Assembly: GCF_012044895.1 (NCBI RefSeq)
Contig: NZ_CP050695.1
Location: 2,944,501-3,008,500, forward strand
Direction of reading: 5' to 3'
Origin: Aquisalimonas sp. 2447
Lineage (GTDB): Bacteria; Pseudomonadota; Gammaproteobacteria; Nitrococcales; Aquisalimonadaceae
Length of the DNA: 64,000 nt
A program made the position numbers and the translations under genes. Positions 47,824 to 50,907 of the stretch are shown piece by piece (the first letter of the stretch is position 1; each line of letters opens with the position of its first letter). A model generated the notes under the pieces. It was not told where the DNA came from. It was given only the letters and a program-made list of their open reading frames with translations, and searched no databases.

Positions 47824-50800
47824 TTACCGCTTGCCGCCGAACAGGCCCTTGATCATCTGCCAGAGCATGGTCAGGGCGCTCATCTCTCGCGGGCCCTCTT
47901 CGACGCGTCGGCGGGCCTCCTCGGCGTCGGCGCCCTCACCCCTGGCAGCCACGTGGTTGCGGAAACTCTCCACGAACTGCTCCAGCATGCGATCGGAGAC
48001 GCTCTCCAGCATGCGGCCGCCGAAGGAGGCCAGCTTGCCCTTGAGTTCGATGCGGGTGCTGCCCACCAGCTCGCAACGGTCCGGGCCCTTGTCCTCGATG
48101 CGGGCGGTGAGGGTCATCGTGGCCGATGAACTGCCCTTGGTGTCGCCGCCGGTGCCGGACATGCGCATCTCCTTGCGCTCCGCATCCACGCCCAGGACCT
48201 CGATATCGCCCTTGAAGCTGGAGGTCACCGGCCCGACCTTCAGGCGCATCTCACCCAGGTAGGTGTTCTCGCCGGTCTGTTCGATGATAGCGGCACCCGG
48301 CATGCAGCCGGCCACCTGACGCACGTCCCGGAGCAGCTCCCAGGCGGCATCCGCCGGCACGTCCAGCGGGTAGGTGCGGTCCAGGGTAACTTCCATGCCC
48401 TTGGTGGACGCCTTGTCCGGAGAGCTGACACCAGCGGAGGACGGCGCCGGCTGGTCGTCGCCCTTCTTGCGCCTGGGCTCGAAGGGCGTGACGTTGGCCG
48501 CCTCGGGGCGCTGGTCCAGCTTCAGCTCACGCAGTGTCTGCCAGATGCGGTAGGCGTTGTGGGGCATGTTCACGTGGGACACGCCGAACTGGTTGAAGGC
48601 GTCGTTGATGGCATTGGAGAAACACGGAATGCCACCCACGTGGGAGGACTCGCCCACGCCCTTGGCACCGATGGGGTGGTGCGGCGACGGCGTGACGGTG
48701 TGGTCCAGCTCCCAGTGCGGCGTCTCCACCATGGTCGGCAGGAAGTAGTCCATCAGTGATGCGCCCTGGATGTTGCCGGCGCCGTCGAAGGGCAGCTCCT
48801 GCCCCATGGCCACGGCGAAGGCCTCGCACAGCCCGCCGTGGACCTGCCCCTCGATGACCATGGGGTTGATGCGGGTGCCGCAGTCATCCAGCGCATAGAA
48901 CCGCCGGATGGAGGTTTCGCCGGTGTAGCGGTCGATGTCCACCACGCAGAGGTAGGCGCCGAAGGGATAGGTCATGTTGGGCGGATCGTAGTAATCCACC
49001 GCCTCCAGGCCAGGCTCCATGCCCTCGGGCACGTTGTTGTAGGCGGCCCAGGCGATCTTGGGCATGTCCACCTGCTGGTCCGGTACGCCCTTGACCCGGA
49101 AGCCTTCGCCGGTCCACTCCAGGTCGTCCTCGCTCACCTCCATGAGGTGGGCGGCGATCTTCTTCGCCTTGTCGCGGATCTTGCGCGCAGCCTGGGCAGT
49201 GGCGGCACCGCCAACCGGGGTGCTGCGGGAGCCGTAGGTGCCGAGCCCGTAGGGCGCGGTGTCGGTGTTGCCCTCCTCGATGATGATGTTCTCCGAGGGC
49301 AGGCCCAGCTCGGTGGCAATGATCTGGCCGTAGGTGGTCTCGTGTCCCTGCCCCTGGCTCTTGGTGCCCATGCGGGCGACCACGCTGCCGGTGGGATGGA
49401 CGCGGATCTCGGCGGAGTCGAACATGCCCACGCCAAGGATGTCGCAGTTGCGGGTCGGCCCGGCGCCGACAATCTCGGTGAAGGTGCACAGGCCGATACC
49501 CATGATCTCGCCGCGCTCGCGCTTTTCCTTCTGCTCCCGCCGCAGGCCCTCGTAATCACAGGCCTCCATGACCTTCTTCAGGGCCGTGGGATAGTCGCCG
49601 CTGTCGTACTCCCAGCCCAGGGCCGACTGATAGGGGAACTGCTCCGGCTGGATGAAGTTCTTCAGCCGGATCGCCGCCTTGTCCATGCCCAGTTTCTCGG
49701 CGAGCACGTCGATCATGCGCTCGATGAGGTAGCACGCCTCGGTGACGCGGAAGGAGCAGCGGTAGGCGACACCGCCCGGGGCCTTGTTGGTGTAGACACC
49801 GTCCACCCGCGCGTAGGCGGTCTTGATGTCGTAGCTGCCGGTGCAGATATTGAAGAACCCGGCGGGGAACTTGCTCGGGTCGGCACAGGCATCGAAGGCG
49901 CCGTGGTCGGCCAGCACGTTGGTGCGCAGGGCGGTAATCCTGCCGTCCTTGGTCGCCGCCAGTTCACCGGTCATGTGGTAGTCCCGGGCGAAGGCGGTGG
50001 TGGAGAGGTTCTCGATGCGATCCTCAATCCACTTCACCGGCCTGCCCAGGACGATGGACGCCACCGTCGCCACCACGTAGCCCGGGTAGACCCCCACCTT
50101 GTTGCCGAAGCCGCCGCCGATATCCGGGGCGTTAATGTGCACCTTGCTCTCGGGGATGCCGGAGAGCATGGAGAACACGGTGCGCACCACATGCGGCGCC
50201 TGAGAGGTGAGATGGACGGTGAGCTCGCCCTTGACCTTGTCGAAAGAGGCGACGGCGCCGCAGGTCTCCAGCGGGCAGGGGTGCACCCGGGGGTAGAGCA
50301 TGTCCTGCTTGACGGTGACTTCGGCCTCGTTGAAGGCCTTGTCAGTCGCCTCGGCGTCGCCCACGTCCCAGGTGAAGATGTGGTTGTGGTGAACACGGGC
50401 ACTGTGGGCGCCTTCGGTCTGGCCCTCCAGGTCCGGGCGGATCACCACGGCGTCGTCGTCCATGGCCCGATGGGGGTCCACCAGCGCAGGCAGCTCTTCG
50501 TACTCGACTTCCACCATTTCGATGGCGTCGGCGGCGATGTAGCGGTCATCGGCAATGACCATGGCCACTTCCTGGTTCTGGAAGCAGACCTTGCCGTCGG
50601 CCAGCACCATCTGCTTGTCGCCGGCCAGGGTGGGCATCCAGTGCAGGCCCAGAGGCGCCAGGTCCTCGGCGGTGAGTACCGCGTGGACACCCGACATGGC
50701 CAGGGCCCTGTCCTTGTGAATGGCCTTGATGCGCGCGTGGGCGTGGGGGCTGCGGACGAAATCCCCGTACACCATGCCGGGCAGCTGGATGTCGTCGACG

Positions 50801-50907
50801 TAGTTTCCCTTGCCCTGGATGAACCGGGCGTCCTCGGTGCGCCTGCGGCGGCAGCCCATGCCGCCGAGCTTTTCGTTGCGTTCCAGGTCCTCGGCTGTTG
50901 TCGCCAT
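47824..50907 (-). CDS. coxL: Form I CO dehydrogenase large subunit fused to a CoxG domain
   Basis: A 1027-residue molybdopterin-cytosine-dinucleotide subunit that oxidises CO at a Cu-S-Mo centre. Residues ~1-800 are CoxL. The form I loop AYRCSFR carries the copper-binding Cys384 (Cys388 in Oligotropha). Further motifs are INAPDIGGGFGNKVG, MGTKSQGQGHETTY and GAKGVGESSHVGG. After a Pro/Ser/Lys linker (~800-837) a CoxG-type SRPBCC domain runs from Met838 (VAGCMPGAAIIEQTGENTYLG) and ends in an amphipathic MSALTMLWQMIKGLFGGKR tail. CoxG is normally a separate membrane-recruiting or quinone-handling partner. No frameshift is apparent. The start is preceded by GAGGAGAGG. Confidence 0.93.
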   Translation of the reverse strand: MATTAEDLERNEKLGGMGCRRRRTEDARFIQGKGNYVDDIQLPGMVYGDFVRSPHAHARIKAIHKDRALAMSGVHAVLTAEDLAPLGLHWMPTLAGDKQMVLADGKVCFQNQEVAMVIADDRYIAADAIEMVEVEYEELPALVDPHRAMDDDAVVIRPDLEGQTEGAHSARVHHNHIFTWDVGDAEATDKAFNEAEVTVKQDMLYPRVHPCPLETCGAVASFDKVKGELTVHLTSQAPHVVRTVFSMLSGIPESKVHINAPDIGGGFGNKVGVYPGYVVATVASIVLGRPVKWIEDRIENLSTTAFARDYHMTGELAATKDGRITALRTNVLADHGAFDACADPSKFPAGFFNICTGSYDIKTAYARVDGVYTNKAPGGVAYRCSFRVTEACYLIERMIDVLAEKLGMDKAAIRLKNFIQPEQFPYQSALGWEYDSGDYPTALKKVMEACDYEGLRREQKEKRERGEIMGIGLCTFTEIVGAGPTRNCDILGVGMFDSAEIRVHPTGSVVARMGTKSQGQGHETTYGQIIATELGLPSENIIIEEGNTDTAPYGLGTYGSRSTPVGGAATAQAARKIRDKAKKIAAHLMEVSEDDLEWTGEGFRVKGVPDQQVDMPKIAWAAYNNVPEGMEPGLEAVDYYDPPNMTYPFGAYLCVVDIDRYTGETSIRRFYALDDCGTRINPMVIEGQVHGGLCEAFAVAMGQELPFDGAGNIQGASLMDYFLPTMVETPHWELDHTVTPSPHHPIGAKGVGESSHVGGIPCFSNAINDAFNQFGVSHVNMPHNAYRIWQTLRELKLDQRPEAANVTPFEPRRKKGDDQPAPSSAGVSSPDKASTKGMEVTLDRTYPLDVPADAAWELLRDVRQVAGCMPGAAIIEQTGENTYLGEMRLKVGPVTSSFKGDIEVLGVDAERKEMRMSGTGGDTKGSSSATMTLTARIEDKGPDRCELVGSTRIELKGKLASFGGRMLESVSDRMLEQFVESFRNHVAARGEGADAEEARRRVEEGPREMSALTMLWQMIKGLFGGKR

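Follow-up and report, generated by a model that had tools for sequence, protein, structure and literature searches.

The window, a stretch of 64,000 nucleotides from the genome of Aquisalimonas sp. 2447 (contig NZ_CP050695.1, positions 2,944,501–3,008,500), contains a gene (window positions 47824–50907, minus strand) in which CoxL, the large subunit of a form I aerobic carbon monoxide (CO) dehydrogenase, and a complete CoxG are encoded as one continuous protein. Translation of this gene gave 1027 residues in one frame with no stop, as had been claimed in a preliminary description of the stretch. The best reading of the chain, to which we assign a probability of about 0.72, is a form I enzyme that carries its own CoxG on a flexible tether, as quinone shuttle and membrane anchor, and that arose by fusion of the adjacent genes coxL and coxG.

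The CoxL part (residues 1–796; 48520–50907, minus strand) was assigned to the large subunit of form I Mo-Cu CO dehydrogenase by TIGR02416 (1432.9 bits; curated cut-off 991.15), and three CoxL Pfam domains were found within residues 31–730. It matched 1ffu_B in the PDB both by sequence (1330.6 bits) and by the fold of its model (TMt 0.97). The active-site loop AYRCSFR with Cys384, on which the form I assignment in the preliminary description rested, was located at residues 381–387; AYxCSFR is one of six form I motifs (PMC13203968). Fold searches showed the part to be 70–72% identical to CoxL of Oligotropha (Afipia) carboxidovorans and Hydrogenophaga pseudoflava and 57% identical to that of Mycobacterium smegmatis. 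The window enzyme shares with these split form I systems the active-site loop, the M-S-L gene order and coxD-E-F behind it, whereas CoxG is a separate protein there and the C-terminal part of CoxL here.

The CoxG-type SRPBCC domain (residues 838–988; 47944–48396, minus strand) was confirmed by a COXG (PF06240) match at residues 850–986 (63.1 bits; gathering cut-off 22.2). The closest solved protein by sequence was M. smegmatis CoxG (8uds_D, 93.5 bits), which was likewise the best fold match (8uds; TMt 0.91, root-mean-square deviation 1.6). The SRPBCC ligand-cavity fold is retained, and CoxG is complete. The last 39 residues (989–1027; 47827–47943, minus strand), a predicted hydrophobic helix with a basic end, show the same pattern in the alignment as the tails of free CoxG proteins; confidence in the predicted tail helices is low toward the end, where the predicted local distance difference test score (pLDDT) is below 50 (1009–1027). 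The title of the 8uds entry describes a structure without the lipid anchoring C-terminus. The linker region between the two parts (residues 797–837; 48397–48519, minus strand) consists of a conserved opening segment followed by a variable stretch, and AlphaFold, run on the fused chain alone, predicted two better-predicted folded blocks with a low-confidence linker between them (pLDDT below 50 at 812–835).

Six genomes from four genera and two orders carry the fusion with an unbroken junction, namely the window genome and G002, G022, G038, G207, and G317; a further fused locus, L032, apparently belongs to G317 and hence adds no genome. The region corresponding to residues 797–837 of the window chain is read through without a change of frame in each of the five other genomes, despite differing linker lengths. 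G002 belongs to the same genus as the window genome; it is only 82% complete, and its CoxL is split over two contigs, with 96% identity in the junction-bearing part. G022 and G038 represent other families of the window's order (CoxL 83 and 82% identical, respectively), whereas G207 and G317 belong to a different order (CoxL 87% identical). The ratio of nonsynonymous to synonymous substitution rates (dN/dS) of the CoxG part was 0.05 compared to the congener and 0.21, 0.31, and 0.43 compared to three other fused genomes, and this part is thus under purifying selection. An assembly or sequencing artefact, or a downstream segment that is never translated, is contradicted both by the five other genomes, in which the frame likewise stays open over the junction, and by this coding constraint, and we therefore give it practically no weight. 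A profile search of the window's closed 3.97 Mb genome for a separate coxG, a point raised in the preliminary description, detected no other PF06240 match. No second CoxG match was found in G022 either. G002, G038, G207, and G317 each have one further match, which shares its contig with another CoxL-like gene that is 32–41% identical to CoxL.

The linker of the six fused chains is 36–42 residues long when counted from residue 800. It starts in all six with a common segment, [RH]PEA[AD]xVxP[FY]xP, which did not occur in the 22 ends of split CoxL chains that were inspected; these chains stop at that point. The corresponding stretch of the window (48475–48510, minus strand) reads RPEAANVTPFEP, directly after CoxL. 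Beyond this opening, the linker varies in sequence and length among the fused chains. Its dN/dS was 0.09 compared to the congener and 0.62, 1.23, and 0.44 compared to three other fused genomes; the linker is thus far less constrained than the CoxG part.

To place the fusion among its relatives, we used a locus list comprising the best 80 of 476 relatives, whose ranking gives preference to matches continuing in phase, i.e., coxG next to coxL. Two of these loci were fused (L032 and L033) and 78 were split, with coxL ending at about query residue 800. A separate coxG frame followed coxL directly in 76 of the 78 split loci (L109 and L110 had none next to coxL), a proportion that, given the bias of the list, does not represent the rate for all form I clusters. 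Of the 69 split loci whose examined stretch included coxD, 68 had the gene order L-G-D; the order in the fused loci was L~G-D (~ denotes a fusion). Given this adjacency of coxL and coxG in the split relatives, the fusion is explained by the joining of two neighbours within coxMSLGDEF.

CoxL with at least 60% identity was found in four of 54 genomes of the window's order, and all four were fused. Among 369 genomes sampled from the class, it was present in 12, of which three were fused (window, G207, and G317); two others (G394 and G221) continued into CoxG only across stop codons. Among 398 genomes sampled from the phylum, the corresponding number was 18, with only the window's CoxL fused and with G766 and G722 continuing into CoxG across one TGA; at most two candidates per genome were scored in these two samples. 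All 16 plasmid records containing CoxL at this identity, A. carboxidovorans included, showed a match ending by residue 817 with no run-on into CoxG. Several loci with long COXG-bearing frames (L162, L163, L164, L165, and L167) were rejected as fusions because CoxL and CoxG lie in different frames. As judged from these sequences, the form I fusion is confined to one clade in the samples searched.

In a tree of 87 CoxL sequences, the fused chains formed one clade with a Shimodaira–Hasegawa-like approximate likelihood ratio test (SH-aLRT) support of 100; its sister, the split L162, was supported by 81 only. This tree was built without rows below 60% identity, and L032 and L033 were dropped as duplicates of L160 and L175. 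A tree of 52 rows, for which only selected free CoxG rows were used (25 of form I), likewise united the fused CoxG parts in a single clade (98/86), nested within the form I coxG group (97/92). In one of the alignments made, the first six to nine residues are misplaced in the 26 free CoxG rows. The fused chains are one clade in both trees, and therefore a single joining of neighbouring genes explains all six, so that the fusion has a single origin within the sample. Within the fused clade, G207 and G317 grouped with the window's genus (support 91) and not with the two other families of the window's order; this hints at transfer of the cluster.

The joining itself may have been near-neutral: the stop between two neighbours would have been lost, and the product would work as an enzyme with free CoxG does, with no new property. 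This is a real possibility, if one we would place somewhat short of even odds, and it is partly compatible with the tethered shuttle and anchor proposed above. Split coxL and coxG are neighbours that often share a frame and are separated by just one stop codon (60 of 79 form I loci, in a sample biased toward in-phase run-on by the list ranking), and the middle of the linker is variable, with dN/dS values up to 1.23. On the other hand, the fusion has been kept in all four form I CoxL found among the 54 genomes from the window's order and also in G207 and G317 from a different order, the segment at the linker start is present in all six fused chains and was not seen in the split ends inspected, and CoxG fusions recur in other molybdenum hydroxylases (see below). 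In total, coxL and coxG were in phase in 72 of the same 79 split loci (L034–L111, L162, L165, and L174), a count subject to the same bias. Such in-frame pairs were not taken as evidence of stop readthrough, as the list favours in-phase matches and the stop types differ.

According to the proposed mechanism, the CoxL part would assemble with CoxM and CoxS and oxidize CO as usual, while the CoxG part would be tethered to it via a mostly disordered linker of ~40 residues. With its cavity fold and tail kept, the CoxG part would most likely reside at the membrane, pick up quinone there and deliver it to the flavin adenine dinucleotide (FAD) site of CoxM within the same molecule. We infer quinone binding, docking to CoxM, membrane tethering and an uncut chain alike, and the permanent tether and fixed stoichiometry anticipated in the preliminary description follow only if the chain stays uncut after translation. 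Two matches to UbiG exceeded the cut-off in the window's genome, while MenD was below it (55.5 vs. 244.2 bits) and no match to MqnA/D was found; since UbiG is present and the tested menaquinone markers are lacking, the ligand should be ubiquinone, which is probably the quinone partner in this organism. Quinone extraction by M. smegmatis CoxG has reportedly been described by Kropp et al. (2025).

Disruption of coxG in O. carboxidovorans increased the generation time from 21 to 149 h with the enzyme still functional, and most enzyme was cytoplasmic in the disruptant (cited there as unpublished), compared to about half at the membrane in the wild type (PMC4240915). Free CoxG was placed near the FAD region in an AlphaFold3 model (PMC13077300). 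Cupriavidus necator (Ralstonia eutropha) H16 has been equipped with cox genes (PMC6011924). CoxG-like proteins were further described to carry glycerol-3-phosphate dehydrogenase to the membrane in Sulfolobus acidocaldarius (PMC11962113); there, as proposed for the window chain, a CoxG-family protein attaches a soluble dehydrogenase to the membrane, but the two are separate proteins and the enzyme is unrelated.

Several points weigh against a tethered shuttle and anchor. The glycerol-3-phosphate dehydrogenases reduce quinones without a CoxG partner, so that CoxG may only anchor (PMC11962113), and the M. smegmatis enzyme was primarily cytosolic despite CoxG expression (PMC6794299). The literature searched yielded no experiments with a fused enzyme. 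The AlphaFold model covers the fused chain without CoxM and CoxS, and the CoxG part is unplaced relative to both. The tail, expected to be amphipathic from the preliminary description, has a hydrophobic character and a basic end, but the hydrophobic moment of the helix was no higher than in shuffled sequences: 722 of 2000 shuffles reached the value of the window chain, 305–951 of 2000 those of the other five fused chains, and 2148 of 10,000 the family mean. Finally, the linker is predicted to be disordered and could be cut after translation.

The first of these points leads to the possibility that the CoxG part is a membrane anchor only and that electrons pass from FAD directly to membrane quinone. 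Besides the dehydrogenases that are quinone-active on their own and merely relocated to the membrane by CoxG, the interpretation of CoxG as a recruiter in PMC4240915 is in line with this. The CoxG part of the fused chain has, however, kept the SRPBCC cavity fold and is closest to M. smegmatis CoxG, the protein with the reported quinone extraction, and we regard a function restricted to anchoring as rather unlikely. The last point leads to the possibility of separate working parts, produced either by cutting of the chain in the disordered linker or by additional synthesis of free CoxG from an internal start at Met838. The low pLDDT values at 812–835 are compatible with the former, and an ATG at the position of the free CoxG start, present in four of the six fused genes (48394–48396 in the window), with the latter. 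The internal start is not conserved, as the position of Met838 holds Met in only four of the six chains and Thr in L160 and L161; a conserved start for free CoxG was rejected on this distribution. The Shine-Dalgarno-like AAGGG is also located almost directly before the window ATG, a gap too short by the usual Shine-Dalgarno spacing. Altogether, separate parts seem improbable to us. The weights given to these alternatives are not mutually exclusive. A form I enzyme with a flexibly tethered CoxG that both shuttles quinone and anchors the complex remains our preferred reading.

A search of long frames for PF06240, combined with reading of the loci, detected three further CoxG fusion arrangements. 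Xanthine-oxidase-type large subunits of ~1000 amino acids (aa) with a C-terminal CoxG were found in eight genomes (G001, G016, G595, G647, G650, G656, G708, and G714; loci L184, L185, L186, L187, L188, L189, L168, and L169), two of the eight chains being identified by Pfam and the other six by BLAST. Like the window chain, they consist of a large molybdopterin subunit followed by CoxG and its tail. The window chain is only ~30% identical to them, and they differ from it by the gene order L~G-M-S, the loop (RGFGGPQ in six chains, RGFGGGQ in the other two, instead of AYRCSFR) and a CoxG on another branch. Relatives of one of them were present on Burkholderiaceae plasmids (Paraburkholderia and Caballeronia), as a single annotated feature in five of 15 records listed. 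In the second arrangement (L166:2331–5405, plus strand; G061), CoxG is N-terminal to a CoxL-like subunit, with the CoxG tail between both parts. The third comprises 2Fe-2S subunits with a C-terminal CoxG (S~G), five of which were scanned by Pfam (L170:9659–10858, L171:9367–10602, L193:5236–6912, L194:4589–6499, and L191:5792–7912); L191 contains FAD, Fe-S, and CoxG parts in one frame and may be a triple fusion. These last two arrangements share with the window chain a CoxG covalently bound to a molybdenum hydroxylase subunit, although it is another subunit or the other end. The CoxG domains of all these fusions fell outside the form I group in the CoxG tree, where L166 had a very long branch of unsure placement, L190 is labelled S~G though its CoxG frame has no CoxS match, and the label of L192 was assigned without a Pfam scan. 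CoxG has thus been built repeatedly into molybdenum hydroxylases, and this recurrence supports CoxG as a physical partner of such enzymes.

The fused gene is located in a cluster with the order coxM-coxS-coxL and maturation genes behind, as in form I clusters, and all genes described here are on the minus strand. Upstream of it, coxM (51486–52355) encodes the FAD subunit (289 aa; FAD_binding_5 and CO_deh_flav_C), and coxS (50990–51484) the 2Fe-2S subunit (164 aa; Fer2 and Fer2_2). Directly after the fused gene follow coxD (46945–47820; AAA+ ATPase, 291 aa, AAA_5), coxE (45812–46945; von Willebrand factor A (VWA) protein, 377 aa, VWA_CoxE 191.8 bits) and a gene for an XdhC/CoxI-family protein of 298 aa (44908–45804; XdhC_C and XdhC_CoxI), named coxF by position. 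Behind coxE (43521–45804), a gene for a MobA-like nucleotidyltransferase (44312–45040; NTP_transf_3), the chosen start of which overlaps coxF, is found between two XdhC-family genes, the second encoding 264 aa (43521–44315; XdhC_C and XdhC_CoxI). Upstream of coxM, a regulator with PAS and LytTR domains (52551–53333; LytTR 77.8 bits, PAS_4) is presumably a CO sensor of the RcoM type. Homologues of this regulator were present in 51 of 90 cox loci, including the fused L172 and L173, and not in the fused L032, L160, and L161. Elsewhere in the genome, a partial RuBisCO_large match over the cut-off (G000:C1:2652072–2652563; 61.7 bits) in a frame of 395 residues possibly represents a RuBisCO-like protein; a second RuBisCO match was weak.

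The preliminary description knew of no example of a CoxL-CoxG fusion. None was found in the literature searched, which lacked most subscription papers as well as Kropp et al. (2025), so that absence from print is not established; the fusion itself is, however, not a one-off, being present in at least six genomes and accompanied by other CoxG fusions in molybdenum hydroxylases. As far as searched, the covalent form I version is new, while the parts and their relation (partner, anchor, carrier) were known. The CoxG model of one survey was built from sequences of 150–450 residues (PMC13240472), and such surveys, which seek a separate coxG, may miss or misplace a fused CoxG.

Aquisalimonas and Ectothiorhodospiraceae are salt-loving. 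As a tentative and rather speculative extension, the fused enzyme might be a self-contained, permanently membrane-tethered CO:ubiquinone oxidoreductase, in which one quinone-carrying CoxG arm per active site would swing between the membrane and FAD. Selection might have favoured the tie in salt-loving lineages, since the split system depends on loose docking and membrane binding, both of which would be weakened by high salt. How aerobic CO dehydrogenase passes its electrons on to respiration has begun to be clarified only lately, and CoxG has been proposed to act in this step as carrier or anchor. The fused enzyme would allow CO:quinone transfer, membrane binding, and dependence on CoxG to be measured without reconstituting a weak complex, and this natural one-chain version argues, by gene fusion, for CoxG as a stoichiometric partner of the enzyme.

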